Shown here piece after piece: positions 21,415 through 62,063 of a stretch of DNA of 64,000 nucleotides. The stretch covers positions 496,001 to 560,000 of the forward strand of contig NZ_QICL01000001.1 of assembly GCF_003201355.1 (NCBI RefSeq), read 5' to 3'. This stretch comes from Indolivaga alginatilytica (GTDB lineage Bacteria > Bacteroidota > Bacteroidia > Bacteroidales > Dysgonomonadaceae). The notes below the pieces were generated by a model, which made no database searches, was not told the origin of the DNA, and was given only the letters and a program-made list of their open reading frames with translations. Position 1 is the first letter of the stretch; every line of letters begins with the position of its first letter. A program made the translations under genes and the position numbers.

Positions 21415-23574
21415 CTATTTAAAGGTATCCGTATAGTGATATTTCATTTCCACCTGATACAGGTCGTCTGTCGAATTGTACTTGAGAGACATATCGTCTA
21501 CAATTATGTAGCGTTTGGTTTTCAGTTCGTATACGGCAGGCGAAGCACTCATTTCGCGTAACCACTCCACCACATCGGTAGTAACGGGCGACGTTTGCAC
21601 TATTTTTTGCTCCTGCACGCTTTTCATGGCAACCGATTCTATTTCAGACTGGAGAGTGAAACCGGACTGTAAGGTTTTATAGATAGTTGATCCTGCGGTT
21701 TTAAATTCCGAAGAAAAGCCTCCTCCGAAGTTCATCGTATCCCATCCTCCCAATCGGTTAAGAAATACAAAATCGTTGATCTCATTAATATCCTCGGGTA
21801 AAATACGGAACGAAAGCGGCGTCGAAATAATCACTTCGGGTTCATCTTTACCCGGATAAGTACTTTTGTGCCATCTGCATAAATAAACGTCTATACGCCC
21901 GACCGTCTTTCCATTGTGCATCGGTAAAAACTCATCGAGCCGTAGCAAGGCCGTATTCACTTTAGAGAACTCACTTTCTTCCTGCCCCTGACAGGTATAT
22001 TCACCTATAAATGCTCCCGACTGGGTATAAAGTTTATAATGCAGCCCGATAGAAGGCACGAGAGGATCGGCAGCACCGCCAATTCTTAAAGCAAGCCAGC
22101 GGAAATGATAAATAAAATTGAAATACTGCTTCTGCCCTTTGATATGTGTACGGTTGAATCGGGTGGTCAACGGCTTGACTTTAGTAAATGGAGGGGCATA
22201 AAAATCCTGAGAAAAATCGAGGATGTAGGAGTCACCTGCATCGTCCTTTTCCAATCCGGAAGGATTTAAGGTATAATCGTATCCATTAAGCACATACAAA
22301 GGCGAGGAGTAATAAAACGGTTGATTAATTTTCCCATCCGTGCGTTTTGCAATAAACCGATAGTCGGTTATCGTTTGGGCATCGCTCCAAAGGCGATACT
22401 TTTCATCTTGGGGGTCGAGTTCCGGCTCGGAAAGAAAAGCAGCCGAATAAGTTACTTTTTTACTCAGTAGTGTACTCAGGTCGAACCACAAGGGTTTTCC
22501 GAAATAAGATTTAGATAGTGTTGTCAGATAATTTCCCAAATAATTGAGTGAATCGTCATTGCCCGGAAAGATCTGATGGTCGGTATATACTTCCAATTCG
22601 ATCTGATAATTTCCCGTTCCATAATCTATAGTATCGGAAGAAGATGAAAGTATTTCTAAATTCTGAATCGAAAATTGCGGAGCTTCAATCTCTACGATAT
22701 ACCGATCGGAACTGAATTTATCCTTTATCGTACAGCTGTAATCATCTAAAACAACATCCACATAATTAAGCAGTTCGCTATCCAGATTCAATACTTTAGC
22801 AACATTTCGGATAGACTTTCTGAAACTTTCATCATTATTTCCCGCATTTGATTCAGGAACAAGTAAATAGGTATCCTGATTCTCTTTTGACGGATCGGTA
22901 GTACCATTCCATTTACGATTATAAACCACATTAGAACCTTCCGTTACTTTAATAGTCAACCAGTATGCCGAGGATACAATATCTTCCGAATTATGAATAT
23001 TGTCGACAAAACTCAAAACATGTTGGTTATAAAAGAGAAGGGCGGATTGAGTGACTTCCAGTGAAGTACCATTGCTCAGAAACTCAAAATCATATTGAAT
23101 CCCGGCCCCTTTTGATAGAATCTCAAGCCTTCCGTTTATGCTTATATCATCATCATCGTTTTTTTCAGCAGGTATAGAAATATCAAAATTATTTCGGAAA
23201 AATGAATTTTTCAACAAACATTCTTTAATATTCTGCAACGTAATCTGATTGGCTTCGCTTTGCGATAAAACAACATTGCCAAGCACTGTCGCCTGCAAGG
23301 GTACAAAAAAGGTATTACTACTAATTTTATTTTTATCATAGGTTCCCTTAAAATCATGCGTATCGCCACTTTGCTTCTCTTTAATTTCAAATTTAAAATG
23401 GTTCTGTGCAACAGATTCAGGATACACTTGTAAAATTTGGATAGTAGCCCTCATTTTCCGATCACTGTCTTTATTTCCTTTACTACTGAATACCACAAAA
23501 TTCGGATTATTAGCCAATGTTATCCCATCAGGCTCAACTACCGAGGCAATCTCTTTATTAGAATAATATCCCAT
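21415..23574 (-). CDS. Phage tail-type structural protein (719 aa)
   Basis: The 719-residue soluble protein has no signal peptide. It starts 'MGYYSNKEIASVVEPDGITLANNPNFVVF', followed by repeated beta-sandwich-like segments. The C-terminal quarter 'VFLNRLGGWDTMNFGG' and the later 'DVVEWLREMSASPAVYEL...YIIVDD' resemble a protein family found in tail modules of Bacteroidales prophages. A tail-tip or baseplate role is inferred. It starts 9 nt after the motif TTTATCTATTCAATAAAA (23583-23600, minus strand), identical to that ahead of the neck gene at 32582. The next phage gene downstream is the 956-residue protein. Confidence 0.65.
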   Translation of the reverse strand: MGYYSNKEIASVVEPDGITLANNPNFVVFSSKGNKDSDRKMRATIQILQVYPESVAQNHFKFEIKEKQSGDTHDFKGTYDKNKISSNTFFVPLQATVLGNVVLSQSEANQITLQNIKECLLKNSFFRNNFDISIPAEKNDDDDISINGRLEILSKGAGIQYDFEFLSNGTSLEVTQSALLFYNQHVLSFVDNIHNSEDIVSSAYWLTIKVTEGSNVVYNRKWNGTTDPSKENQDTYLLVPESNAGNNDESFRKSIRNVAKVLNLDSELLNYVDVVLDDYSCTIKDKFSSDRYIVEIEAPQFSIQNLEILSSSSDTIDYGTGNYQIELEVYTDHQIFPGNDDSLNYLGNYLTTLSKSYFGKPLWFDLSTLLSKKVTYSAAFLSEPELDPQDEKYRLWSDAQTITDYRFIAKRTDGKINQPFYYSSPLYVLNGYDYTLNPSGLEKDDAGDSYILDFSQDFYAPPFTKVKPLTTRFNRTHIKGQKQYFNFIYHFRWLALRIGGAADPLVPSIGLHYKLYTQSGAFIGEYTCQGQEESEFSKVNTALLRLDEFLPMHNGKTVGRIDVYLCRWHKSTYPGKDEPEVIISTPLSFRILPEDINEINDFVFLNRLGGWDTMNFGGGFSSEFKTAGSTIYKTLQSGFTLQSEIESVAMKSVQEQKIVQTSPVTTDVVEWLREMSASPAVYELKTKRYIIVDDMSLKYNSTDDLYQVEMKYHYTDTFK

Positions 23575-23582
23575 GCTCTATC

Positions 23583-23600
23583 TTTTATTGAATAGATAAA
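23583..23600 (-). promoter_or_regulatory. TTTATCTAT island motif (copy 1)
   Basis: TTTATCTATTCAATAAAA on the minus strand, ending 8 nt before the ATG of the 719-residue tail gene. It is identical in sequence and spacing to 32591-32608. Confidence 0.7.
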
Positions 23601-31599: not shown

Positions 31600-32037
31600 T
31601 CAATCGTTAAAAAACACTTCTATTTCCTTAATTATAGCATCAAATAATTGATCTGCCCACTCATTTTCAAACGATTTGTCTATTTCCTGCTCCAGCATAG
31701 CTAAGATCGGACGGGGTGCCATTCCTTGTTTCCTTATTGTTTCGGCAATGGCATACAACACATCATTGGTGGCGGGTATTCCCTTGCGTTGTGCCCAATC
31801 TCTCAACTCGGATATGGGAGGAGCAATTCCCGAATCGGACTTCCTTCCGCCTTCGATGTAATCAATATAATCATTGAACAGAATGGTAAAAACAGGATTG
31901 CCCGAAGCCTCAACCGTGCATCTGACATCTTCTTTCAAGGCACTGTTCTTCAAGCCGTTTTCGTCCAATATCAAATGAGCGAGCGACAGGATATCTTCTG
32001 CAATACTATTCAGCACCTTTTCCATTGATTCATTCAT
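31600..32037 (-). CDS. Phage head-tail connector / gp10-like structural protein
   Basis: The 145-residue protein is mostly helical. The central 'VFTILFNDYIDYIEGGRKSDSGIAPPISELRDWAQRKGI' and later 'YAIAETIRKQGMAPRPILAMLEQEI' follow the pattern of HK97 gp10-like tail-completion proteins: a loop Y-I-x-G-G-R-K, then a P-P-I-x-x-L-x-x-W-A helix, then G-x-x-x-R-P. It is the second gene of a two-gene operon, overlapping the preceding one by 4 nt (ATGA). It is followed by the host AAA/TOPRIM pair in convergent orientation, with no other phage gene adjacent. Confidence 0.65.
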   Translation of the reverse strand: MNESMEKVLNSIAEDILSLAHLILDENGLKNSALKEDVRCTVEASGNPVFTILFNDYIDYIEGGRKSDSGIAPPISELRDWAQRKGIPATNDVLYAIAETIRKQGMAPRPILAMLEQEIDKSFENEWADQLFDAIIKEIEVFFND

Positions 32038-32582
32038 CGTTTAGAAGTTTTAAGATCAAATACGGGCAGTTTATTTACAAAGGTTTCGCAGGCATTGGCA
32101 GCCTTCACCTCAAAGTTATTTAACGGCTTACTTATTTCGAAGTCTTTCAGCGTATCAAACTGTTCTTCGATCAGGCATAAATCCTGCATATTACGTTGCA
32201 CAAAATCAACGGTAAAACGGCATCCGCAAGCATTATTGTCATAATAGTTCCGAAGGGTAAGGTACGACCATGTGGGAAGTATAGAAACGGGAACCGCTTC
32301 ATCGTACTTGATACGTTCCAAAATATTCAGTCCAATGGAAAAAGCCAGATTTTGAAAATTGGCAACCTCGCTTTCGTCCTTCGGTACAAAAAGGATGGAA
32401 AAGTTTGCCGTATTCGAAAAAGTATTTGCATTATTGCGACCCGTTATCGGATCTTCGAGCCAGAAAAGCGGATGAGCTTCGTTACCCGACCCTATCTCGT
32501 AGTTGCGATTGTAATAAAAAGAGCGGATCGTTTTGTGTTCACGTGCCTGACGGCGAAACATTTCGATAATACTGTTAATCAT
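32034..32582 (-). CDS. Phage neck / tail-terminator-like protein
   Basis: The protein has 182 residues from ATG 32582; an upstream TTG at 32615 lies within or beyond the promoter motif and is rejected. The pattern 'HPLFWLEDPITGRNNANTFSNTANFSILFVP', 'QNLAFSIGLNILERI', 'WSYLTLRNYYDNNACGCRFTVDFVQRN' is one I recognise from neck or tail-terminator proteins of Bacteroidales prophages. The start is preceded by TTTATCTATTCAATAAAA with an 8-nt spacer. It is first in a two-gene operon with the gp10-like protein. Host hydrolase and acyltransferase genes lie divergently upstream. Confidence 0.65.
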   Translation of the reverse strand: MINSIIEMFRRQAREHKTIRSFYYNRNYEIGSGNEAHPLFWLEDPITGRNNANTFSNTANFSILFVPKDESEVANFQNLAFSIGLNILERIKYDEAVPVSILPTWSYLTLRNYYDNNACGCRFTVDFVQRNMQDLCLIEEQFDTLKDFEISKPLNNFEVKAANACETFVNKLPVFDLKTSKR

Positions 32583-32590
32583 ATAAGTGG

Positions 32591-32608
32591 TTTTATTGAA
32601 TAGATAAA
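32591..32608 (-). promoter_or_regulatory. TTTATCTAT island motif (copy 2)
   Basis: TTTATCTATTCAATAAAA on the minus strand, ending 8 nt before ATG 32582. It is identical to the copy at 23583-23600, which controls another phage island 9 kb away. Confidence 0.7.
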
Positions 32609-38118: not shown

Positions 38119-38361
38119 ATGAAAACAGATTTGTATACCAAAATTATCCTTACTGTAATTGCGATACGCTCTACTGTAAACCTGCTAAAAGAACTGGGAA
38201 TAATGCTAAGTACCAAGGTAAAAAAAGCTGCAACCGTTGCTGCCCCTACACAAGCCACCCCTGTGGATGTGAACATTACACACATCAACGGTTGTGCTTT
38301 GGAGGACAATTACAACGGTTATGTAATTCCGGTCGAAATGATAAAGAACCGTGACAAATAA
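38119..38361 (+). CDS. MKTDLYTK-family small membrane protein, copy 1
   Basis: The protein has 80 residues. It starts M-K-T-D-L-Y-T-K and has one hydrophobic stretch (about 8-27), then an Ala/Thr/Pro linker and the conserved 'PVDVNITHING' and a final N-R-D-K. Six related genes stand in a row to 41563. I do not know the family's function; similar short proteins occur singly in many Bacteroidales. Copy 1 has the most diverged leader and an unusual 'TKVKKAATVAA' linker. Confidence 0.6.
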   Translation: MKTDLYTKIILTVIAIRSTVNLLKELGIMLSTKVKKAATVAAPTQATPVDVNITHINGCALEDNYNGYVIPVEMIKNRDK

Positions 38362-38442
38362 ACCGATTGCCGCTTCCTCTACCAACACACTACTAACACT
38401 TTTTATTTCCTGCTGATTAAACCTTCGATAAGTTGAATAGTC

Positions 38443-38450
38443 TATATTTG
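38443..38450 (+). promoter_or_regulatory. Array leader promoter (TATATTTG)
   Basis: The -7 box in the repeated leader of copy 2. The same leader recurs before copies 4, 5 and 6 and, diverged, copy 1. Confidence 0.6.
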
Positions 38451-38486
38451 TATACGAGCGATAGTAACCATTTAATACACATGATT

Positions 38487-38741
38487 ATGAAAACAGGTTT
38501 ATTTTCGATACTCACCTCTGCTATAAGATCTATACCCTTCATAGCCAATTATCTGAAAAATATGGAAGCCATATATTCCGCAAGATTCAATGCGGATGTT
38601 CCTCCCACATATCCTACTGTTACAACTACCGAAAGTGTATTGTGGGAAAAGAATACTTTACATATCGACAGTTTGGCTGACGGCGATATTTACAGCAATT
38701 CCACTACAGCTTTTGAAATTACAGAAAATCAAGATAAATAA
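38487..38741 (+). CDS. MKTDLYTK-family small protein, diverged copy 2
   Basis: From ATG 38487 it has 84 residues and starts M-K-T-G-L-F-S. An ATG six bases earlier is also possible. The N-terminus is less hydrophobic than in other copies and the PVDVNI motif is lost, but the ending E-N-Q-D-K and the leader are family-like. It looks like an eroding paralog that still has an open frame. Its promoter is the typical repeated leader. Confidence 0.45.
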   Translation: MKTGLFSILTSAIRSIPFIANYLKNMEAIYSARFNADVPPTYPTVTTTESVLWEKNTLHIDSLADGDIYSNSTTAFEITENQDK

Positions 38742-38766
38742 TAATAACCATTAATTTTCACTGATT

Positions 38767-39018
38767 ATGAAAACAGACTTGTATACCAAAATCGTTCTTA
38801 CGATTATCGCTATTGCACTAAGTGCTATCGCTTTCCAAAATGTAAATTTTGTTTCTACAGCTACAGCAAGCACCGCCTCAACTGCACCCAACCCTTTGCC
38901 TGCACCAACGCAAAACAATGTGATTGATGTTAGGTTGGTAGACGTTGGTGGTGAAATAGGTACGCGAAGTTATCGTACACAGGTTCCAGTAGTAATTGTG
39001 GAAAATAAAGACAAATAA
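38767..39018 (+). CDS. MKTDLYTK-family small membrane protein, copy 3
   Basis: The protein has 83 residues, with M-K-T-D-L-Y-T-K, a helix (about 9-30), a Ser/Thr/Ala/Pro linker, then 'VIDVRLVDVGGEIG' and the ending E-N-K-D-K. It follows copy 2 by 25 nt without its own leader, so copies 2 and 3 share one transcript. The terminator AGCACC/GGTGCT with T7 follows at 39043-39070. Function unknown. Confidence 0.6.
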   Translation: MKTDLYTKIVLTIIAIALSAIAFQNVNFVSTATASTASTAPNPLPAPTQNNVIDVRLVDVGGEIGTRSYRTQVPVVIVENKDK

Positions 39019-39042
39019 TCTTTATAATAAGATACATATACA

Positions 39043-39070
39043 GAGCACCAACCAAAACGGTGCTTTTTTT
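39043..39070 (+). terminator. Intrinsic terminator inside the small-gene array
   Basis: Stem AGCACC/GGTGCT followed by TTTTTTT. The same type of terminator recurs at 40548-40574 and 41139-41166. Confidence 0.75.
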
Positions 39071-39107
39071 ATTACCCCCCATTAAACCTTACATAATCTG
39101 AATAGTC

Positions 39108-39115
39108 TATATTTG
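39108..39115 (+). promoter_or_regulatory. Array leader promoter (TATATTTG)
   Basis: The -7 box within a leader of about 68 nt (39084-39151) that is identical, apart from the first bases, to the one before copy 5 at 40583-40654. Confidence 0.65.
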
Positions 39116-39151
39116 TATACAAACAATAGAAACCATTAACAAACTTAGATT

Positions 39152-39403
39152 ATGAAAACTGACTTGTATACAAAAACCGTTCTTACTGTGATTGCTGTAT
39201 TTTTAGGTGTATTGATATTTCAAAACACAAGTGTAATATCAACTGTACAGGCAAACACTGCTGCAACCTCACCTACTCCTATACCTACTGCGATACAAAA
39301 TACTCCTGTCGATGTGAATATTGTACAAGTGGATGGTAAACCTGTATTAGTTGAGGGTTTTAATGGAAAAAATGCACTAAGGGTTTCGCAAAATCAATAT
39401 TGA
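39152..39403 (+). CDS. MKTDLYTK-family small membrane protein, copy 4
   Basis: The protein has 83 residues, with the same M-K-T-D-L-Y-T-K start, a clean membrane helix (9-30, 'VLTVIAVFLGVLIFQ'), a Thr/Pro/Ala linker and 'PVDVNIVQVDGK'. Its first half is almost the same as copy 5, so the two are a recent duplication. It lies 37 nt before a truncated tape-measure paralog whose start is preceded by the TTTATCTAT motif, forming one repeat of a two-gene cassette. Confidence 0.65.
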   Translation: MKTDLYTKTVLTVIAVFLGVLIFQNTSVISTVQANTAATSPTPIPTAIQNTPVDVNIVQVDGKPVLVEGFNGKNALRVSQNQY

Positions 39404-39414
39404 ATTTTCACCAA

Positions 39415-39432
39415 TTTATCTATCCAATAAAA
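39415..39432 (+). promoter_or_regulatory. TTTATCTAT island motif (copy 3)
   Basis: TTTATCTATCCAATAAAA ends 8 nt before ATG 39441 of a tape-measure-like gene. The spacing equals that of copies 1 and 2. Confidence 0.7.
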
Positions 39433-39440
39433 GAATAGAT

Positions 39441-39896
39441 ATGAGTGATAATAAAAAAATATTTATAATAGAAATTAATGGAGTTAAGCAGGCATATAAT
39501 GAGGTATGCCTGCTAACAGATGCAATAAATGGTCTGGAAGTATCATTAACTAAATCTAAAATAACAAAATTGTTATCTAATATATTTAGCAGTATTAATA
39601 ATATTAGCTCTGCATTTAAAACTACCAATGCTGATATTGAGAAAATAATTGCAGATACTCCCAAGCTTGAAGCTCTTATAAAACAGCTTGATACTATAAA
39701 CACACAGGTTACAAAAGTTAAAAGTATAACAGACACAGCAAGCACTACGTCTGAATCAAAGCCTACCACAAGTGTAACTGAGAAGAAAAATGATTCCTCT
39801 ACAACAAATTCGGAAACAGAAAAGCAAATAAAAGCATTTAATGATAGTATAAAAAAGACTCCCGTCCCTTGGGATTTGCAATCCCAAGGATACTAA
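39441..39896 (+). CDS. Truncated tape-measure-like protein (N-terminal domain only)
   Basis: The protein has 151 residues. The start 'KKIFIIEINGVKQAYNEVCLLTDAINGLEVSLTKSKITKLLSNIF' matches, in pattern, the N-terminus of the 646-residue tape measure ('KTLSIDLKINGDKQLKETVNDLTALDKAI...FPTKLAESF'). It then continues through a Ser/Thr-rich helix and stops within a REP hairpin ('PVPWDLQSQGY'). It is a paralog cut off at the site where a RAYT element stands. It may still make an N-terminal adaptor fragment. Confidence 0.55.
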   Translation: MSDNKKIFIIEINGVKQAYNEVCLLTDAINGLEVSLTKSKITKLLSNIFSSINNISSAFKTTNADIEKIIADTPKLEALIKQLDTINTQVTKVKSITDTASTTSESKPTTSVTEKKNDSSTTNSETEKQIKAFNDSIKKTPVPWDLQSQGY

Positions 39897-39915
39897 TCAA
39901 AGGATTTGCAATCCT
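39867..39915 (+). repeat. REP-type palindromes upstream of the RAYT gene
   Basis: CCTTGGGATTTGCAATCCCAAGG-type hairpin (39867-39889) and AAGGATTTGCAATCCTT (39899-39915), both with a GGATT...AATCC core. The same core recurs after the transposase gene. Confidence 0.8.
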
Positions 39916-39930
39916 TATTTAATTTAAAAC

Positions 39931-40467
39931 ATGGATATAAAAAACAAATTAACATCAGATATCTATTTTGTGACAATGACTGTAACAAATTGGATTGATG
40001 TTTTTACTCGTCCGGATTATAAACATATTATAATAGATTCATTAAATTATTGTAGTGCTAAAAAAGGATTAAATATCCACGCATGGGTGTTAATGACTAA
40101 TCATCTTCATTTGCTTATTAGCAGTGAACAAAATATATCGGATATCTTAAGAGATTTTAAAAAGTATACCTCCAAACAGCTCACACAGAATATTAGTGAA
40201 AACATCTCTGAATCCAGAAAAGAATGGCTACTAAACTTATTTGGATATGCTGCGAGTATAGACAAAAAAGTGAAAAATTATAAATTCTGGCAAGAAGGCA
40301 ATAACATCCAATTAGTTTATAGTGAGTCGTATTGTAAACAAAAAATCGATTATATTCATCAAAATCCTGTAAAAGCCGAAATTGTTAATTGTCCTGAGGA
40401 TTATCGTTATAGTTCTGCTAATGATTATATGGGAAATAAAGGTTTGGTGGAAATTATTATTATTTAA
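39931..40467 (+). CDS. REP-associated tyrosine transposase (RAYT, IS200-like fold)
   Basis: The 178-residue Y1-transposase has the HUH motif in 'MTNHLHLLI' (H58-x-H60) and the catalytic tyrosine in 'QKIDYIHQNPVKAEIV' (Tyr141), followed by 'YRYSSANDY'. It is a RAYT: palindromes of the GGATT/AATCC type lie on both sides, and there are no terminal inverted repeats. RAYTs process single-stranded REP hairpins with a 5'-phosphotyrosine intermediate. It sits inside the second tape-measure cassette and has replaced the 3' part of that gene. Confidence 0.9.
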   Translation: MDIKNKLTSDIYFVTMTVTNWIDVFTRPDYKHIIIDSLNYCSAKKGLNIHAWVLMTNHLHLLISSEQNISDILRDFKKYTSKQLTQNISENISESRKEWLLNLFGYAASIDKKVKNYKFWQEGNNIQLVYSESYCKQKIDYIHQNPVKAEIVNCPEDYRYSSANDYMGNKGLVEIIII

Positions 40468-40478
40468 TGAATACAATA

Positions 40479-40524
40479 TGGATTTCAAATCCACAACTAA
40501 ACACTCGGGATTATAAATCCCGAG
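40479..40524 (+). repeat. REP-type palindromes downstream of the RAYT gene
   Basis: TGGATTTCAAATCCA (40479-40493) and the hairpin CTCGGGATT/AATCCCGAG (40504-40524), related to the upstream palindromes. Confidence 0.8.
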
Positions 40525-40547
40525 AAACGATTATAAGTAATTTTCAC

Positions 40548-40574
40548 AAGCACTGCTACAAACGGTGCTTTTTT
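40548..40574 (+). terminator. Intrinsic terminator after the RAYT element
   Basis: AAGCAC/GTGCTT stem followed by TTTTT, sharing the GTAATTTTCACAAGCAC lead-in with the terminator at 41139. Confidence 0.7.
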
Positions 40575-40610
40575 ATTTCCCCCATTAAACCTTACATAAT
40601 CTGAATAGTC

Positions 40611-40618
40611 TATATTTG
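40611..40618 (+). promoter_or_regulatory. Array leader promoter (TATATTTG)
   Basis: Leader copy before copy 5, nearly base-for-base the same as 39084-39151. Confidence 0.65.
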
Positions 40619-40654
40619 TATACAAACAATAGAAACCATTAACAAACTTAGATT

Positions 40655-40924
40655 ATGAAAACTGACTTGTATACAAAAACCGTTCTTACTGTGATTGCTA
40701 TATTTTTAGGTGTATTGATATTTCAAAACACAAGTGTAATATCAACCGTACAGGCAGGTACTGCTGCAACCTCACCTGCTCCATTACCTGCTGCTGCACA
40801 AGCTGCTCCTGTAGACGTGAATATTGTGCAAGTCGCTGGAGTAGATTTAAAACTTACTACAGATTACAATTTTAATAGCCTTAGTGGTATACCTGTTCAT
40901 ATAAGATACAATAGCGATAAATAA
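40655..40924 (+). CDS. MKTDLYTK-family small membrane protein, copy 5
   Basis: The protein has 89 residues. The first 34 residues are almost the same as copy 4, with the same membrane helix. The linker is Ala/Pro-rich and leads to 'PVDVNIVQVAGVDLK', ending N-S-D-K. It is followed 37 nt later by a tape-measure fragment with its own TTTATCTAT motif. This is the second repeat of the cassette. Confidence 0.65.
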   Translation: MKTDLYTKTVLTVIAIFLGVLIFQNTSVISTVQAGTAATSPAPLPAAAQAAPVDVNIVQVAGVDLKLTTDYNFNSLSGIPVHIRYNSDK

Positions 40925-40943
40925 AAATCTTCTTAATTGCCAT

Positions 40944-40961
40944 TTTATCTATAATAGAAAA
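40944..40961 (+). promoter_or_regulatory. TTTATCTAT island motif (copy 4)
   Basis: TTTATCTATAATAGAAAA runs directly into ATG 40962 of a short tape-measure-like gene. Confidence 0.65.
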
Positions 40962-41156
40962 ATGGCAAAGAAAAAATATGAAATTGATATAAATATAGGA
41001 GGGCGAAAAGAACTAAAAGAGACCATTAAAGATATTGAAACCCTTGATGAAAATATAATGGCATCGAAGTTCTCGTCTAAGCTGGCAAAAATGTTTGGGA
41101 GTGCATCCGATTCTATTAAAGGTTTCTGTAATTTTCACAAGCACTACTACCAATAG
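40962..41156 (+). pseudogene. Remnant of a tape-measure gene (N-terminal 55 residues)
   Basis: The frame encodes 64 residues: 'KKYEIDINIGGRKELKETIKDIETLDENIMASKFSSKLAKMF' matches the start of the tape measure ('KINGDKQLKETVNDLTALDKAIITAKFPTKLAESF'). After S-I-K-G-F the match ends abruptly and a shared 3' segment with a terminator follows. This is a deletion product of a third tape-measure copy. Translation of a short fragment is possible. Confidence 0.65.
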
Positions 41157-41166
41157 TGCTTTTTTA
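41139..41166 (+). terminator. Intrinsic terminator after the tape-measure remnant
   Basis: AAGCACTA/TAGTGCTT stem followed by TTTTT, sharing its lead-in with 40548-40574. Confidence 0.7.
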
Positions 41167-41203
41167 TTGCCCTACAATTAAACCTTGTATAATCTGAATA
41201 GTC

Positions 41204-41211
41204 TATATTTG
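41204..41211 (+). promoter_or_regulatory. Array leader promoter (TATATTTG)
   Basis: Leader copy (41172-41248) before copy 6, with a few changes from the other copies. Confidence 0.65.
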
Positions 41212-41248
41212 TATACAAACAATATTAAACAATTAACAAACATAGATT

Positions 41249-41563
41249 ATGAAAACTGACTTGTATACAAAAACCATTCTTACTGTAATTGCTGTATGTC
41301 TTACTGTAAACTTATTAAAAGAGTTTGAGATTATACCAGCCGTACAAGCAAATACGGCAGCAACTGCTCCTGCTCCGATACCTGCTGCAACGCAAACTGC
41401 ACCTATAGATGTGAATATTACGCATATAGGAGGGATCCTTATAACTACGAAGAAAGACCAGAAAGATGAATATGAAGTAACAGATTATAAATTATTTTAT
41501 AGAAAAGCAATCAATATCTACGATGGATTCCCTGTGAGATTTGATAATAACAACAACAAATAA
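41249..41563 (+). CDS. MKTDLYTK-family small membrane protein, copy 6
   Basis: The protein has 104 residues. M-K-T-D-L-Y-T-K is followed by a helix (9-25) and 'TVNLLKEFEIIPAVQANTAATAPAP', then 'PIDVNITHIGGI' and a longer, more polar C-terminus ending N-N-N-K. It precedes the full tape-measure gene by 45 nt. It is the intact form of the cassette that copies 4 and 5 repeat. Whether it is a phage gene or a host gene that travelled with it is open. Confidence 0.65.
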   Translation: MKTDLYTKTILTVIAVCLTVNLLKEFEIIPAVQANTAATAPAPIPAATQTAPIDVNITHIGGILITTKKDQKDEYEVTDYKLFYRKAINIYDGFPVRFDNNNNK

Positions 41564-41588
41564 AAACTAATATATACCATTTGTCATT

Positions 41589-41606
41589 TTTATCTATAAA
41601 AGAAAA
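41589..41606 (+). promoter_or_regulatory. TTTATCTAT island motif (copy 5)
   Basis: TTTATCTATAAAAGAAAA ends 2 nt before ATG 41609 of the full-length tape-measure gene. Confidence 0.7.
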
Positions 41607-41608
41607 AG

Positions 41609-43549
41609 ATGGCAAATAATAAGAAGACCTTAAGTATAGATTTAAAAATAAATGGTGATAAACAATTAAAGGAAACAGTCAACGACCTTACCGCTTTAGA
41701 TAAAGCGATAATAACTGCAAAATTTCCAACTAAACTAGCCGAATCGTTTCGGAGTTTTTCTGATTTATCGGTAATTTTCTCTAAAGACACCGATTATATG
41801 GTTGAAGCAATAACCAAAGTAGTACCTACTATGAATGTTGCGTCACAGAAAATAAACGACATAGCCACAACCTATCTCGGCATTTCGGGCAAAAGGCAAA
41901 TAGATGAGATAGAAAAGCTCTCGAAAATAAAATACAGCAGCGATATAAAGTATACAGAAGAGGCGAAAAAATTATACGAGAACTACTATAATAGCCAACA
42001 AAAGCTATATAGTAATGATCTAGAAAAACTAAAACAGATATCCAAAGAAAAGAAAGAGTATGAGGAAGCATATATTCAACGAAAGAAAGAAATACAGAGA
42101 GAAGTAGAGAAGTCTCTTAAATATGGACAAAGTGATACGCCTGATACTGTTGCAATCAAACTCATCACCGAACTCAAGAATCTAAGTGACCTAAAAAAAG
42201 ATGCCAACTTATCTAATATTGTTATTCAAAAACAATTTATCAAAGAAGAAGAAACCCTACAAACCGACCGAAATAAACGCATTGCGGATTTAGAAACATC
42301 GGCATTAGAACGCAATGCCGAAGCCGGGCAGACATTCAACTTTATAAAGCTAAATGAGACAAAAGAAAACTATAAGGAAATAGAAAAGCTTCGACTGGAG
42401 AATATTAAAGCAGCAAAAGAGGAAGCCAAACGCGTTGCTGACGCTTACGACGAAATGGCAAAAGCATTTGAGAAAGGGTCAACAGGAGAAGCCGTTATTC
42501 TGGAAGAAAAAAAAAACAAACTATCTGGCATCAACAAGCAGATAATCAAAGATCAGCAGGCTGTAAACGATTCTACCAAAACTATTACGGCAGCCACACA
42601 AATATACTACGATGAGCTGGCTAAAAAGATAACCGATTTTCACACCAAATGGACAGAGGTATATGGTGCTATGGGTGGTATGGTAAAAGGATTTCTCGAT
42701 TTACAAATAACGGGTTTAAAAGAAGACCAGGAAGAAACGGCCAAAGTGATTGCCGAAAAAACTAAAGCATATGAAGAACACACGGGAAAAGTAAAAAGCC
42801 TTGAAGAAGAAGCCAAAACAGCCTCCGGCGGACGGGCAATTGTAGTGCAGGAACAATTGGCTCGCGAAATGGAAGCTCAGGCAGAACTGCTTAAACAGAA
42901 AAAAGAAGCCGAAAAAGAAAAAGAAGAAATCGACAAACAGATTGCCCGAAAGAAAAAGCAGCAAGCTAAAATAGACAAGGTACAAGAGATCGCTAAAGCA
43001 ACCGCCAATCAGGCAGCGGCAATCATCAAGGCATGGGGCATGGGGCCTATCTTGGGACCTATTATGGCTGGTATTACTGCATTAGCCACAGGAATACAAA
43101 TTGTCAAGATGAAACAGGAATGGGACAAACTCGAAGACGGAGGCTTGCTTAAAGGCAAACGTCACTCACAGGGCGGAATGCGTATCGAGGGGAGCAATAT
43201 AGAAGTGGAGGGCGATGAATTTGTGGTTAACCGCATATCGACCCGAAAGAATCTGGGCTTGATCGATTATATCAACACACAACGCAGGGAATTGTCGCCT
43301 GCCGACCTTACGACCTTTTTTGCACGTAGCGGTCGGAATAACACCGTACAGCAGCACACCATCAAGCATATGTACGAACAGGGCGGACAGTTGACCAATC
43401 TCGCAGTGGTGGATTCGTCAACGGCTCCCGACAACAGTAAGATTCTGGAAGCTATTTCACGGATCAATTTTCAACCCGTAGTTTCAGTCGTTGATATTGC
43501 CAACGCACAAAGCAATATAACGCATGTAAAAGATATTGCAGGAGTGTAA
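41609..43549 (+). CDS. Phage tail tape measure-like protein
   Basis: The 646-residue protein has long charged coiled coils from about 90 to 470 (Lys/Glu/Ala-rich), then a hydrophobic glycine-rich region 'AWGMGPILGPIMAGITALATGIQIV' (about 473-497). The C-terminal domain 'LEDGGLLKGKRHSQGGMRIEGSNIEVEGDEFVVNRIST' is one I recognise from the end of tape measures in Bacteroidales prophages. The length implies a fairly short tail of roughly 100 nm, using about 0.15 nm per residue. It starts 2 nt after the TTTATCTAT motif. No other tail gene adjoins. Confidence 0.75.
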   Translation: MANNKKTLSIDLKINGDKQLKETVNDLTALDKAIITAKFPTKLAESFRSFSDLSVIFSKDTDYMVEAITKVVPTMNVASQKINDIATTYLGISGKRQIDEIEKLSKIKYSSDIKYTEEAKKLYENYYNSQQKLYSNDLEKLKQISKEKKEYEEAYIQRKKEIQREVEKSLKYGQSDTPDTVAIKLITELKNLSDLKKDANLSNIVIQKQFIKEEETLQTDRNKRIADLETSALERNAEAGQTFNFIKLNETKENYKEIEKLRLENIKAAKEEAKRVADAYDEMAKAFEKGSTGEAVILEEKKNKLSGINKQIIKDQQAVNDSTKTITAATQIYYDELAKKITDFHTKWTEVYGAMGGMVKGFLDLQITGLKEDQEETAKVIAEKTKAYEEHTGKVKSLEEEAKTASGGRAIVVQEQLAREMEAQAELLKQKKEAEKEKEEIDKQIARKKKQQAKIDKVQEIAKATANQAAAIIKAWGMGPILGPIMAGITALATGIQIVKMKQEWDKLEDGGLLKGKRHSQGGMRIEGSNIEVEGDEFVVNRISTRKNLGLIDYINTQRRELSPADLTTFFARSGRNNTVQQHTIKHMYEQGGQLTNLAVVDSSTAPDNSKILEAISRINFQPVVSVVDIANAQSNITHVKDIAGV

Positions 43550-49619: not shown

Positions 49620-49636
49620 TTTATCTATCAGTAAAA
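49620..49636 (+). promoter_or_regulatory. TTTATCTAT island motif (copy 6)
   Basis: TTTATCTATCAGTAAAA ends 10 nt before ATG 49647, the first gene of the protease-capsid-tube island. Confidence 0.65.
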
Positions 49637-49646
49637 TCAAGCACTT

Positions 49647-50840
49647 ATGAACATACCCGTTTACAACTGTCTGATAGACGAAAACACAGAAGATCAAAGC
49701 GGTATCTATGCCATTTCGTTTGTAGATGTACCCGCCAATGAAATAGACTTTGTAGCATTAGCCAAACAACCTAAGCTCGAACGTTTAAATCGTGATTCAC
49801 AAAAGCAAATACTCACAGGAGCAGTACTTCGCCCCGATCAGTTAATATATCGCAACGATAACAGAGGCGAATATTACATTCAGTTTTCGGCAGAGCAAAT
49901 CGAAAAGATCGCACAAAAAATGATGCGCACAGGCATCGCTTTACACAATACTACACACCAACACCAAAACCCTCTGGAAGGGAATTTTCTGACCGAACTC
50001 TGGATTGTTGAAAATCCGGAACATGACAAATCCCAAGCTCTCGGCTTTACCGACTTACCGAAAGGCACACTGATGTGTAGCTACAAAATTGCGGACAAAA
50101 ATTATTGGGATACGCAAGTAATGACAGGAAACGTCAGGGGATTTTCTTTAGAGGGTTTCTTCTTTCAGGAAATAAAGAAAAACAAAATTAATAAATCAGT
50201 TACTAATCAAAATCGAAATGAAAAAATGAATCAAAGAAACAAGAAATCGGGAACATTACTATCTCGCATCTCACAGTTCTTTCTCGACATTCAGGCGGTA
50301 GAAAAAGCCGATGCTACCACAAGCGGAACGGCTTATGTAATCTTTACCCTTGCCGATGGGAAAGAAGTATATATTGATGCCGATGGGTTTGCAACCCTCA
50401 ACGAAGAACAGCTTCCGGCCGGTGAACATCCTTTGGCTGACGGAAATATTCTGATAGTTGACGAGCAAGGACAATTTATCGAGACCAAAGAAGCGGCTGC
50501 CGAAACTTCCGATCCGGCACAGGCAACAGCACCCGAAGCATTAAGAAAAAAATTCCGACAAAAATTCGAAGACAATGCCATCGCTAAACCACAAGGAACA
50601 GTATCCGAAAGCGGAGAATCTACTGATGTTTTGAAACAGAAAATTGCAGATCTGGAGGCAAAACTATCGGAACTTGCAGGACTGGCTAAAGAAGCAAACA
50701 CAGAGGTACAGAAACTTCGCAGTCAAACTCCCAGCAGTATGCCCGCTACGGCAATGGCTGCCTGTCGTAAATTATCGGAACTGAAACGCTACGAGCAAAT
50801 GGCACAAGCCCTTTCGTTGACAATCAGAAACCGCAAATAA
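49647..50840 (+). CDS. XkdF-like prohead protease fused to a scaffold-like tail
   Basis: The protein has 397 residues. The N-terminal half (about 55-175) has the XkdF/Peptidase_S78_2-like pattern: 'ILTGAVLRPDQLIYR', 'GEYYIQFSAEQIEKIAQKMM', 'HNTTHQHQNPLEGNFLTELWIVE' with His100, His104 and His106, and 'VMTGNVRGFSLEGFF' with Ser167, the likely Ser/His catalytic residues. The C-terminal half is Ala/Glu-rich with a coiled coil near 325-360, like a scaffold that is processed during capsid assembly. It is the first gene of the island. The next phage gene, the capsid, is 175 nt downstream past a modular repeat. Confidence 0.75.
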   Translation: MNIPVYNCLIDENTEDQSGIYAISFVDVPANEIDFVALAKQPKLERLNRDSQKQILTGAVLRPDQLIYRNDNRGEYYIQFSAEQIEKIAQKMMRTGIALHNTTHQHQNPLEGNFLTELWIVENPEHDKSQALGFTDLPKGTLMCSYKIADKNYWDTQVMTGNVRGFSLEGFFFQEIKKNKINKSVTNQNRNEKMNQRNKKSGTLLSRISQFFLDIQAVEKADATTSGTAYVIFTLADGKEVYIDADGFATLNEEQLPAGEHPLADGNILIVDEQGQFIETKEAAAETSDPAQATAPEALRKKFRQKFEDNAIAKPQGTVSESGESTDVLKQKIADLEAKLSELAGLAKEANTEVQKLRSQTPSSMPATAMAACRKLSELKRYEQMAQALSLTIRNRK

Positions 50841-51015: not shown

Positions 51016-51948
51016 ATGGCAAATATGTATAATATTTCACCTCTCAGCTATCAACCAAGTACCAATATGGATTGGTTTACAAAAGCATTATTCGGAGGTC
51101 GTTTGATCGAAAACGGTAAAATCGATGTAATTACAGGTGTAAAAGAAAGCACTTTACTGAACTTACTAAACTTCGAACACACTCTATTACAACCCGATGG
51201 CAGAGACTGTGCATGGACTCCCGAACAAGTATTCAAACTGAGCGAAAAGGAAGTAAAAATCAAGACATACAAGATCAATCTGGAGCAATGTATTGACGAT
51301 CTGGAACGCAAACGCATCAATGTAATGCTGAAACCGGGTGCTAAAAATACAGAACTACCCGAAGCTCTCGAAGAAGCTACCATGCAAATGCTGGCTGCCG
51401 AACTTAGTTCTGAGATAGAGTCGAAAATATTCACAGGAAACAGCGCAGTAGACGCTAACGATTTTGACGGGGCAGTAACCGTTCTTTCGGCAAGCACAGA
51501 AGCAGTTAAAATTACAGGATCGGCTCTTACAAAAGCAAATATCATCGGAGAAGTAGAAAAAGTATACGATGCTATCCCCGAAAATGTATTGGTAAAGGGT
51601 TTGGAATTCGATACCGTAAAAATCTATGTTGCATACGAAACGCTTCAACGCCTTAAGATGGCTCTGGCCTCTGTGAGCAATCAAGTGATAGCAACTGCCT
51701 TTACGATAGAAGCCGAAACACTTCGTTATCTTGGAATAGAAATAGTTCCTGTTAAAGGACTGAATAACAAAACCATGATTGCCGCCGACATCACAAACTT
51801 CTTATTGGCAACCGATTTGTTGAGCGACACTGAAGAAATCCGCATCGGACAATTCCCTGCTCCTCACGACAGCAAAATCTTTATTGACGGACGCTTACGT
51901 CTTGGTTTTGTAATTCCATTCGAGGACGAGGTGGTATTCTATAATTAA
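51016..51948 (+). CDS. Phage major capsid protein (HK97-like)
   Basis: The 310-residue protein has no signal peptide. A helix-rich start is followed by 'WTPEQVFKLSEKEVKIKTYKINLEQCIDDLERKRI', 'LKPGAKNTELPEALEEATMQMLAAELSSEIESKIFTGNS', 'LRYLGIEIVPVKGLNNKTMIAADITNFLLATDLLSDTEEIRIGQ', and the end 'GRLRLGFVIPFEDEVVFYN'. This order is one I know from Bacteroidales tailed-phage capsids. The short E-loop-like segment and the C-terminal acidic ending fit the HK97 fold. It lies between the protease-scaffold and the probable tail tube, the usual gene order. Confidence 0.75.
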   Translation: MANMYNISPLSYQPSTNMDWFTKALFGGRLIENGKIDVITGVKESTLLNLLNFEHTLLQPDGRDCAWTPEQVFKLSEKEVKIKTYKINLEQCIDDLERKRINVMLKPGAKNTELPEALEEATMQMLAAELSSEIESKIFTGNSAVDANDFDGAVTVLSASTEAVKITGSALTKANIIGEVEKVYDAIPENVLVKGLEFDTVKIYVAYETLQRLKMALASVSNQVIATAFTIEAETLRYLGIEIVPVKGLNNKTMIAADITNFLLATDLLSDTEEIRIGQFPAPHDSKIFIDGRLRLGFVIPFEDEVVFYN

Positions 51949-51998
51949 GACCTCAGTCCAATAAAAAACTCATATACATAAACAAATACACATACAAT

Positions 51999-52559
51999 AT
52001 GTCTTGTAAATTAACAGCAAACATTACTAAAGAAAACTGCCAATATCAGGTGGCAGGTATCAAATCGGTATATTTAATCAACTTAGATTCGAATCCCACT
52101 TTCGAATTCAAGAAAAATCCTGACGGAACTACAGCCGATAACAAGATTATCAGTAAGATTACTCTTGATGCCTCCGAGTCTATCTATAAAGTGAACTTTG
52201 TTGAAGGCACAGCCTCATTCACCGACGACTTAGCGGTAAACGGAAACGGGGGAAAATACCGTACTCATACCGTTAATTTCACAGTAAGTGAATACGATTA
52301 TAACACGATAAACCAAGGTAATGCTCTAAGTTTAGGCAGATTTATCGCTATCATCGTAGACAAATCGGGTCGCTCTATCGTTTTGGGTCGTAACAACGGA
52401 TTGAGTGCTACTTCATTCAATTACGCTTCGGGAGCAGCTGACGCGGATGCTAACGGATGGACAACTGTACTTGCCGGTACTGAATTGGAAATTGCCAAAT
52501 TATTGGAGGACGAATCTGTTATCACTCCAATTGCAGCAACAGTAGTTGTTACTCCGTGA
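51999..52559 (+). CDS. Probable phage tail tube protein
   Basis: The 186-residue soluble protein lies 51 nt downstream of the capsid gene. It has 'CQYQVAGIKSVYLINLDSNPTFEF' at the start, 'EGTASFTDDLAVNGNGGKYRTHTVNFTVSEYDYNTI' in the middle, and 'RFIAIIVDKSGRSIVLGRNNGLSATSFNYASGAADADANGWTTVLAGTELEIAKLL' in the last half. The beta-rich body and position suggest a tail-tube or major tail protein. Its opening 'GIKSVYLINLD' is echoed by the 61479 protein. A strong terminator follows. Confidence 0.55.
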   Translation: MSCKLTANITKENCQYQVAGIKSVYLINLDSNPTFEFKKNPDGTTADNKIISKITLDASESIYKVNFVEGTASFTDDLAVNGNGGKYRTHTVNFTVSEYDYNTINQGNALSLGRFIAIIVDKSGRSIVLGRNNGLSATSFNYASGAADADANGWTTVLAGTELEIAKLLEDESVITPIAATVVVTP

Positions 52560-61388: not shown

Positions 61389-61458
61389 AACAAGTTTATT
61401 TTGCAAACCTAATTATTTTATAAATATATTTACATGTGTAATTTCGGATATAAAAGAA

Positions 61459-61476
61459 TTTATCTATATAATAAAA
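61459..61476 (+). promoter_or_regulatory. TTTATCTAT island motif (copy 7)
   Basis: TTTATCTATATAATAAAA ends 2 nt before ATG 61479, the start of the fibre island. Confidence 0.7.
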
Positions 61477-61478
61477 AG

Positions 61479-62063
61479 ATGGCCTATAAACTGACAAGAG
61501 GGATTGATAACCTCACAGAATACAACTTGGGAGGTATCTCACATATCTGGCTACTAAATATTGACGATTTTATAGCATATCAATTTAGGGATGACAGCCT
61601 ATATAACTCCGGCTATGTAGATGCAGTATATAAAAGTGCCCCTTTCTTCGATCTGGGATGTGTAGACGAAACCAACTTAAAAGAAACATTCGGAAATGGA
61701 GTATACAAACAAGAACTAAGCACATTCGTACATACCCTGAACGAAGATACACTCAACTGGGTTCAGCATGCGATGCATGGAAAATATCTCATTATTTTTC
61801 GAACAATAAGTGACCGCTATTTCACATTCGGATCGGATGGCGGAGCAAAACTCTCCTATTCCGGGCAAACAGGGCAGACAGGCGAAATAAATGGAGTAAC
61901 AATCAAATTAGAGAAAAATTCTATTTATCCAATATTTGAAGTACACTCCAATGCCGTAAGCACCTCACTGCTAGTTAGTCAATTCCTTTCATGCATAACT
62001 ACCGAAGAAAGCGATATTACAAATATAAATTACATAATAGAATTAAATGAGCAAAAGTCTTAA
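61479..62063 (+). CDS. Second tail-tube-like phage structural protein
   Basis: From ATG 61479 it has 194 residues; the upstream frame from 61434 includes the promoter motif and is rejected. It opens 'YKLTRGIDNLTEYNLGGISHIWLLNIDDFIAYQF', like the 'YQVAGIKSVYLINLDSNPTFEF' of the probable tube protein at 51999. The middle reads 'RYFTFGSDGGAKLSYSGQTGQTGEINGVTIKLEKNSIYPIFEVHSN', a pattern seen in tail-tube-like proteins. It is the first gene of an operon with a fibre gene that overlaps it by 17 nt. A tube, cap or fibre-adaptor role is likely. Confidence 0.5.
   Translation: MAYKLTRGIDNLTEYNLGGISHIWLLNIDDFIAYQFRDDSLYNSGYVDAVYKSAPFFDLGCVDETNLKETFGNGVYKQELSTFVHTLNEDTLNWVQHAMHGKYLIIFRTISDRYFTFGSDGGAKLSYSGQTGQTGEINGVTIKLEKNSIYPIFEVHSNAVSTSLLVSQFLSCITTEESDITNINYIIELNEQKS

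Follow-up and report, generated by a model that had tools for sequence, protein, structure and literature searches.

The locus described here lies in a 64,000-nucleotide window of the Indolivaga alginatilytica genome (G000), the window being the whole stretch of DNA analysed. Within positions 39152-43549 it carries three units, each pairing a small gene with a tape-measure (TMP) frame; only the last TMP is of full length, and both earlier frames are orphan N-termini (A at 39441, B at 40962). The first-pass annotation had put small genes at 39152, 40655 and 41249, with TMP frames at 39441, 40962 and 41609, and had read the first two TMPs as keeping the N-terminus only. Both the positions and the reading are right, with TMP-like sequence extending over about 106-138 residues in A and about 54 in B. 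Three extra array members (38119, 38481, 38767) lie upstream of these units, and a Y1 (RAYT-like) transposase with palindromes (39871-40521), absent from that annotation, separates orphan A from copy 5, with four palindromes in total flanking it on both sides. The features of the cassette (38119-43549) are:

38119..38361, + strand: array copy 1, small exported-protein gene (ORF; family profile A2)
38481..38741, + strand: array copy 2, divergent, without the YTK motif (ORF; 82/86 aa to genome G001, dS 0.12)
38767..39018, + strand: array copy 3 (ORF; family profile)
39045..39070, + strand: terminator-like hairpin and T-run 5' of copy 4 (read in the sequence)
39108..39115, + strand: TATATTTG, the -7 box of copy 4 (repeat family D4)
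39152..39403, + strand: array copy 4 (ORF; family profile)
39415..39432, + strand: TTTATCTATCCAATAAAA element 5' of orphan A (one of five exact pattern matches genome-wide)
39441..39896, + strand: orphan TMP N-terminus A (best match the active TMP of D. macrotermitis, E 7e-17)
39871..39915, strand not given: two REP-like palindromes, left of the transposase (palindrome search)
39931..40467, + strand: Y1/IS200-like transposase, RAYT-like (PF01797, E 3e-7, 31 bits against a cut-off of 23)
40479..40521, strand not given: two REP-like palindromes, right of the transposase (palindrome search)
40550..40575, + strand: hairpin and T-run 5' of copy 5 (read in the sequence; repeat family D5)
40655..40924, + strand: array copy 5 (ORF)
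40944..40953, + strand: TTTATCTATA element 5' of orphan B
40962..41156, + strand: orphan TMP N-terminus B (24/48 identities to the active TMP)
41141..41165, + strand: hairpin and T-run 5' of copy 6; orphan B ends inside it (read in the sequence)
41249..41563, + strand: array copy 6, adjoining the active TMP (ORF)
41589..41606, + strand: TTTATCTATAAAAGAAAA element 5' of the TMP (one mismatch to the pattern)
41609..43549, + strand: full-length TMP, 646 aa (conserved C-terminal motif in a 10-sequence alignment; synteny with phage genes)

Units 4-6 all carry a -7 box and an upstream hairpin with T-run of their own, neither of which is present at copy 3; the TATATTTG box, presumably a -7 promoter element of the Bacteroidota type, has equivalents at 38443, 40611 and 41204. 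Copy 2 (38481) was unmatched by the small-gene family profile. Beyond its TMP-like part, orphan A runs into codons derived from the palindrome, and an HLH motif is visible in the transposase ORF. The 646-aa protein at 41609 had no matches in Pfam or PHROG, and we call it a tape measure for its length, its context and its general likeness to such proteins. The structure models of the small protein and of the TMP N-terminus (mean pLDDT 64 and 57) are too weak for a fold search. An assembly artefact can be set aside, as genomes assembled separately, the single-contig G001 among them, share the arrangement.

Related loci were compared in a set of 28, comprising the window, six loci of one set and 21 loci out of the 33 in a second, drawn from 25 genomes; the counts are not independent because of kinship by descent and because 28 loci come from 25 genomes. 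The loci left out were the same places as others (L044, L045, L046 and L073, equal to L031, L027, L030 and L032), had their match near a contig end (L053, L062, L063, L066), or were other organisms or partial matches (L069, L074, L075, L076).

The small proteins are about 75-118 aa long, with a predicted N-terminal helix (3-25) and a nearly invariant A34 at an AxA-like site; the two scanned had no match in Pfam. Their leaders had been called nearly identical, which is true of copies 4 and 5 (promoter 96%, codons 1-34 98%) and only partly of copies 5 and 6 (89% and 77%), and between the 3' tails of copies 4, 5 and 6 the similarity does not rise above that of shuffled sequence. More widely, the leader is constant, the tails do not exceed the 95% level of shuffled sequence in 10/16 pairs and more alike than shuffled ones in 6/16, and dN/dS across 10 pairs is 0.17-0.81. 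Small genes stand upstream of the TMP in 10/28 loci, with one more inverted, and downstream in 0/28 (+ strand scanned); among these 11/28, the small gene of L051 is cut to 36 residues. Three genomes also have family members away from the TMP, four genomes of another family have one member as a solitary gene (context read for three of them), and there were no small-gene matches among 50 viral-contig loci. An exported gene lies directly 5' of the TMP in 21/25 loci vs 158/357 of the other non-phage ORFs (Fisher p 1e-4), exported here meaning a call by our own hydrophobicity rule on 25 loci. That rule counted a spurious antisense ORF in L031 and overlooked the small gene in L054; it likewise called 13/22 downstream neighbours exported.

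Such an array could arise from selection only on amplification and diversification of the small proteins, unrelated to the particle, with TMP starts carried along by position. The small genes do outnumber the orphans (6 vs 2 here), their constant leader is joined to a divergent tail and the family is also known as a solitary host gene. We nevertheless judge this account unlikely, since 13 of the 14 genomes of the family that have the small gene carry a copy at the TMP, and TMPs lacking one mostly have another exported gene in that place, by the rule-based call.

The three N-terminal domains had been expected to align with one another. Both orphans do align to the active TMP (A with 29/86 identities, B with 24/48; 0/2000 shuffles reached either score), and orphan A does not align significantly to orphan B (193/2000 shuffles reach the score). 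No remnants of a TMP body were found by a TMP search of the window's own genome, which returned the full gene and orphan B only; strongly diverged remnants could escape this search, as orphan A was also missed there. The PHROG matches of orphan A are weak (best a head scaffolding family, E 6e-4; lower, a tape-measure family, 0.055), and we read them as coiled-coil likeness.

Nine orphan TMP N-termini occur in 7/28 of the related loci (seven genomes, mostly Dysgonomonas), and control regions had none (0/267 downstream ORFs, 0/303 reverse-strand ORFs). A tenth upstream match (L061, E 0.007, without the element) was judged spurious and is outside the nine. All nine carry TTTATCTAT, the element of the particle genes described below, 18-26 nt 5' of the start codon. 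Orphan and active N-termini differ with dN/dS 0.22-0.24 in three pairs, which argues against simple decay of the orphans, changes in the active copies contributing too. Working short proteins made with the particle, whether assembly adaptors, competitors or tail-length modifiers, might be expected to have this dN/dS and, like 9/9 here, an open start with the element normally spaced before it. That the orphans are such proteins is nonetheless quite improbable, as their TMP-like parts range from about 28 to 137 residues with no common end, six of them pass straight into a terminator, palindrome or promoter, and 21/28 loci have no orphan.

The 3' junctions also bear on how the orphans came about, which the first-pass annotation had ascribed to 3' deletion of older TMPs. 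No such deletion is needed: in 6/9 orphans the terminator, palindrome or promoter of the next unit follows at once, orphan A meets palindromes and the transposase, and 2/9 run into an opposite-strand lipoprotein-like gene. Palindromes mark orphan A and the junctions of the two D. capnocytophagoides orphans, and similar ones lie one unit 5' of the orphan in UBA7710, a distribution that would suit cutting of the TMPs and building of the array by the Y1 transposase and its palindromes. This we consider highly improbable, because the other six orphans have no such palindrome in the 130 nt read 3' of each and a transposase ORF adjoins one orphan only.

The nearest active TMP of an orphan belongs to another species in 5/9 cases and to its own genome in 4/9. 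The UBA7710 orphan is identical to the start of its own active TMP over 31/31 aa, and the promoter and TMP-start stretches each recur there at 597-598 bp; orphan B of D. capnocytophagoides favours its own TMP by a slight margin (score 122 vs 107 for the window-genome TMP). Between G000 and G001 the adjoining genes (37205, 43627) have dS of 2.19 and 2.36, the array genes and TMP inside the locus 0.12-0.85, and the TMP has 96-99% DNA identity over residues 366-515 vs 47-53% over its first 90 residues. In HGC4, which is nearer to the window genome, flanking genes have dS 0.5-1.3 and the TMP is 47% identical in amino acids with dS 2.29. Low synonymous divergence is also seen in four host genes of the window (955, 10351, 10930, 15432; pS 0.21-0.44). 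The fall in dS inside the locus relative to its flanks, together with the very different TMP of HGC4, shows that the TMP locus has been exchanged horizontally between species and is not vertically inherited.

Tandem duplication of small gene and TMP followed by neutral 3' loss, with no swapping and with the orphans as junk, is strained by these results, namely by the five foreign-type orphans, the exchange between species and the lack of any TMP-body remnant seen in the own genome. The four orphans nearest to their own TMP, the near-identical recent tandem copy in UBA7710, the widely varying orphan lengths and a G001 remnant that seemingly has ATA for ATG (read at L024 10245-10310) would agree with it, and we regard it as doubtful.

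The TMP is one member of a phage-particle gene set whose parts lie dispersed between host genes along about 209 kb and on a second contig, and most units of the set have TTTATCTAT 5' of the start (the element was compared across 41 loci). Members in the window besides the TMP are:

17918..20788, - strand: p20788, scattered phage gene without the element (homologue in compact prophages; no Pfam match)
21415..23574, - strand: p23574, scattered phage gene with the element (pattern search; compact-locus comparison)
31600..32582, - strand: two scattered phage genes in one unit, element 5' of the first
49647..50840, + strand: prohead protease, XkdF family, element at 49620 (PF14550, E 9e-13)
51016..52559, + strand: major capsid protein and next gene (PHROG 11320, E 9e-66; 1623, virion structural protein, E 6e-11; 19091, E 3e-14)
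61434..62063, + strand: scattered phage gene, start at 61479 after the element

Elsewhere the particle proteins include TerL (PF17288, E 4e-15), DUF6712, a holin (PF05105), a GH19 endolysin and a portal match below its cut-off (PF04860, E 8e-8). With host genes between them, TerL lies at C1:377k, p441875 at C1:441k, the window genes at C1:514-558k, the lysis genes at C1:560-562k, the portal at C1:585k and a TerS-like gene on C27. The C1:377k terminase has the element before a GTG start, the start being inferred. We did not count the large terminase on C44 as belonging to the particle, because the two-gene terminase pair there has no element. Further terminase matches occur on C20, C4, C10 and C25.

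A plain prophage can be discarded for the window, where host genes stand between the phage genes and the order is largely kept across species apart from rearrangements. Compact loci of like gene order occur in G019 and in viral contigs; among the 23 compact loci listed, 15 have no TTTATCTAT anywhere and eight have one or two copies, the D. mossii compact locus (L089) being without it. An identical structure in a plain prophage, which would have spoken against the first-pass reading, was not found, and the compact prophage-type loci L033, L052 and L072 have neither orphan nor small gene. The capsid gene has the same topology as the host gene GuaA in six genomes, two capsid nodes being supported at only 0.66 and 0.26, and capsid and host distances are correlated (Mantel rho 0.665 in 23 genomes and 0.775 in 22, 0/999 each), weakly within the sister genus g6 (rho 0.233, 31/999); 23/25 genomes with a match were compared, leaving out G458 (partial match) and G466. 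The particle gene set may well be largely vertically inherited in Dysgonomonas, and the TMP locus is not. One particle is unlikely to package all genes of the set, which extend across about 209 kb and onto another contig. As judged from its genes, the scattered set resembles a gene transfer agent and is a candidate for one. The capsid protein and TMP had no match in 50,697 phage records.

The comparisons show, at the level of sequence, that the units repeat and that orphans recur with the same 5' element as the particle genes. Repeated duplication of a two-gene unit, as first proposed, is supported, most clearly in UBA7710, and is not sufficient by itself: with or without 3' deletion it does not account for the five orphans nearer to a foreign active TMP and the exchange between species. 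We think that the 5' end of the TMP locus has probably undergone recurrent unit duplication and N-terminal replacement, with orphans left behind. The unit would comprise a terminator-like hairpin, a host-type promoter, the small gene, TTTATCTAT and the first 30-140 TMP codons, and may be duplicated through recombination that is unequal or uses microhomology. Replacement of the active N-terminus would come from homologous recombination in the conserved body and the leader repeats; superseded units of small gene and N-terminus would remain upstream, where the N-terminus may shorten or decay and the small gene would usually be kept. Tentatively, the small exported proteins may be envelope partners of the TMP, exclusion or compatibility factors being the likeliest form, and if they are such factors keeping the old ones would pay. 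A more speculative and rather unlikely extension is that the particle is of gene-transfer-agent type, that TMP start and small protein form a polymorphic compatibility locus diversified through interspecies exchange, perhaps by way of the particle itself, and that old units are a memory of past entry-exclusion specificities.

Tape measures are usually seen as passive rulers. A replaced front end, with old ends and envelope-protein genes kept alongside, points to recognition at the tail-membrane step, for which the locus offers a ready natural series for testing. The scattered gene set with a common 5' element is a candidate gene transfer agent in Bacteroidota, and the TTTATCTAT element is a simple handle for finding further particle genes.

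Several known systems share parts of this arrangement. In RAYT/REP elements a Y1 transposase is flanked by palindromes, and this is borne out here by a Y1 domain above cut-off between palindromes; the difference is that it occupies a single junction, and the element is not the cause of the array. SNIPE is described in PMC13190303 as a membrane nuclease recognising incoming tape measures, with escape changes at TMP residues 100-150 in phage Bas14; unlike this nuclease, the proteins here are small, the two scanned being without Pfam match. Ltp of phage TP-J34, according to PMC3952083, is a superinfection exclusion lipoprotein acting at the C-terminal end of the TMP. Like the small proteins here, which are predicted to be exported, Ltp is a small, exported, phage-encoded envelope protein, with action on the tape measure as its own feature, but its target is C-terminal whereas the N-terminus varies here, and here there is an array with variable tails.

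Gene transfer agents, as described in PMC9662315, have proteins derived from tailed phages, fully endogenised, often across multiple loci, and mostly vertical, do not fully package their own genes, and package random host DNA that is delivered to other cells; for agents such as RcGTA the paper also holds a five-loci statement. In the open-access literature searched, we found no gene transfer agent described in Bacteroidota. The present set shares with RcGTA endogenised tailed-phage proteins at many loci, a capsid gene apparently inherited with the host in the genus, and terminase, portal, capsid, tail and lysis genes. It differs in having mostly short units with a common 5' element and a capsid protein and TMP unmatched among those phage records. 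Tailed-phage derivation and endogenisation over multiple loci are the features borne out.

The displacement model of CDI and Rhs loci holds that superseded end modules are left beside the active locus. Orphan toxin/immunity modules in such loci are described in PMC3967940 and other papers. Common to both are a constant region with a variable end and old end modules that lie, with a small neighbouring gene, beside the active locus. Here, in contrast, it is the N-terminus of a tail tape measure that varies, the orphans are upstream, and the proteins scanned had no toxin-domain match (Pfam, PHROG). What is borne out is a superseded variable end of another type beside the active gene, in 5/9 orphans.

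The tape-measure protein (TMP) gene stands at the end of an array of small exported-protein genes, within which a unit of one such gene and a TMP start is repeated:

38119-43549, + strand: small-gene/TMP array with six copies of the small gene, two orphan N-termini of the TMP and a full-length TMP (646 residues)

The orphans, A (39441-39896) and B (40962-41156), lack a TMP body, and the active TMP occupies 41609-43549. Common to the small proteins are MKTDLYTK, a hydrophobic stretch and an alanine that hardly varies, placed at an AxA-like site; a variable tail follows (alignment A2, 25 sequences). A 271-nt stretch covering terminator, promoter and leader is 91% identical between copies 4 and 5, whose tails no longer align past the conserved leader. 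Of 16 pairs compared, drawn from seven genomes, 6 exceeded the 95% level of shuffled tails in tail identity and 10 stayed at or below it. Leaders and tails may recombine independently, because one pair in strain 10(H) is reversed, with a leader at 88% and a tail at 98% identity. A Y1 transposase is located after orphan A, with two palindromes either side. Of 101 genomes from the bacterial family, 14 have the small family, and 13 of these carry a copy at the TMP; across the phylum it was detected in 7 of 395, the own genome counted.

Orphan TMP starts are recurrent. We compared 357 ORFs upstream of the TMP at 28 loci (25 genomes) with any TMP start and found nine clear orphan N-termini in seven loci; the same test gave 0/267 among downstream and 0/303 among reverse-strand ORFs. 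Two orphans each belong to the window genome and D. capnocytophagoides, and one each to the related genome G001, D. macrotermitis, UBA7710, 10(H) and strain 511. Small genes are present in six of these seven loci, strain 511 being the one without them. Own and foreign types are mixed, as four orphans are nearest to their own genome's active TMP and five to that of another genome. The active TMPs of 10(H) and strain 511 belong to another type, each accompanied on the opposite strand by a small lipoprotein-like gene. Because the UBA7710 orphan equals the active TMP start at 31/31 residues, and both promoter and TMP start repeat at a distance of 597-598 bp, its unit is a recent tandem copy. The G001 orphan has 44/57 identities to the active TMP start of the window versus 24/50 to the active TMP of G001 itself, and the TMP bodies of the two genomes are 83% identical. 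G001 also has an apparent further dead orphan start (L024 10245-10310), with ATA where ATG is expected and the upstream element retained.

The G001 orphan terminates at GGTAATTTTC, which occurs at the same place in the window TMP, and the end of this orphan recurs at the start of the unit that follows. The terminator stretch in which orphan B ends is the one that closes the G001 orphan. Palindromes mark the ends of orphan A and both D. capnocytophagoides orphans, and the junctions of the remaining orphans have neither GGTAATTTTC nor palindromes. Since the junctions differ, orphan-forming events were probably repeated rather than one inherited accident.

The TMP locus has also been exchanged between species. 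Its named relatives (33 loci) are mainly Dysgonomonas, including D. capnocytophagoides, D. macrotermitis, D. mossii, D. hofstadii and strains HGC4 and 216; some loci come from MAGs that carry the label Prevotella, and a few from other organisms. Between the window genome and G001, dS is 2.19 and 2.36 for genes flanking the array versus 0.12-0.85 for the array genes and TMP, with 96-99% DNA identity at TMP residues 366-515, although low pS (0.21-0.44) is also seen in four short host genes of the window. Slow TMP evolution as the cause is ruled out, because TMP pS reaches 0.70 to D. capnocytophagoides and 0.76 to D. macrotermitis. HGC4 is nearer to the window genome than G001 in capsid protein (96% versus 93%), and its TMP (L031 8353-11778) has 1141 residues versus 646; the two TMPs are 47% alike over 507 aligned codons with dS 2.29, versus 0.5-1.3 for the genes flanking the TMP. 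Tail length may differ about twofold between these close relatives.

The TMP is one of a set of phage genes placed singly or in short runs between host genes:

C1:377k: TerL
C1:441k: phage gene
Within the window: several scattered phage genes
C1:560-562k: holin, endolysin and one more small gene
C1:585k: portal and connector
Contig C27: TerS-like gene

The related genome G019 has two compact prophage-like copies (L033, L038) with the same gene order and, by eye, an integrase-like gene nearby.

A common 5' element, TTTATCTAT, precedes many of these genes and the orphans:

41589, 40944, 39415, 32591-32608 (- strand), 23583-23600 (- strand), 49620, 61459: TTTATCTAT sites before phage-particle genes or orphans in the window

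It lies 18-26 nt 5' of the start in 9/9 orphans. Over 41 loci, exact TTTATCTAT within 45 nt of the start was found for 53/141 phage-gene homologues versus 6/535 other ORFs, two of the six being orphan TMP starts and two of holin-gene length (one visibly a holin homologue). With four scrambled 9-mers or the reverse complement, the corresponding counts were 0-2 of 141 and 0-4 of 535. By gene, the element precedes TMP in 19/30, tail32582 in 8/10, portal in 7/12, protease in 5/12, p61479 in 4/8, p23574 in 4/9, connector in 4/13, TerS in 1/1 and p441875 in 1/10; near the starts of capsid (0/10), p51999 (0/9), tail32037 (0/10) and p20788 (0/7) it was not found. In the window, the capsid, p51999 and tail32037 genes come after another phage gene, but p20788 does not. 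The extended pattern, TTTATCTATNNANTAAAA, has five exact matches in the 5.12 Mb genome; four of these lie in the window, 5' of phage genes or of orphan A. Allowing up to one mismatch gives 18 matches versus 10 for the reversed control. TTTATCTAT resembles a late-type promoter or leader element dedicated to a regulon. Its origin or spread may have accompanied gene scattering, because 15 of the 23 listed loci, almost all of them compact and alike in gene order, have no copy. A gene for an ECF-type sigma factor (Sigma70_r2, E 1e-20) and the next gene lie among the phage genes (24298-25247); the pair is near p23574 in the window and D. capnocytophagoides, and G001 has the pair with p23574 elsewhere. 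This sigma factor is a possible regulator of the element.

Conserved leaders and a conserved TMP body would allow recombination with incoming or duplicated DNA, so that a new TMP start would be joined to the existing body, leaving the earlier unit upstream. We favour this reading of the unit's anatomy and origin with moderate confidence. An exported gene lies beside the TMP at 21/25 loci versus 158/357 among other ORFs, where the call is a hydrophobicity rule, the loci are related and 13/22 downstream neighbours also pass; this suggests an envelope partner beside most TMPs. Taken alone, an exclusion role for the small exported proteins is possible but less likely than not. In Dysgonomonas UBA10850 (L048 2747-4306), a tandem pair of 240-aa exported-protein-like genes outside the small-gene family lies immediately 5' of the TMP. 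Lipoprotein-like genes lie on the opposite strand upstream of other TMP types (L049, L057, L061, L064), three of the four containing short repeats such as YTIRPDGDNYE.

The TMP locus may be likened to displaced CDI/Rhs modules, mirrored to the N-terminus; we claim likeness and not membership, because toxicity and immunity are CDI/Rhs features beyond the sequence evidence here. With gene transfer agents, as described in PMC9662315, the phage gene set has in common phage-derived proteins and many loci, and it may be a candidate. Inheritance with the host has support limited to the capsid gene inside the genus: the capsid tree matches that of GuaA in shape when G017 and five genomes of the genus are compared, two nodes being weakly supported, and capsid/host agreement is weak in the sister genus. 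Ltp exclusion acts through the TMP, at its C-terminal end (PMC3952083), and SNIPE recognises tape measures at the membrane, where changes that allow escape fall at TMP residues 100-150 (PMC13190303).
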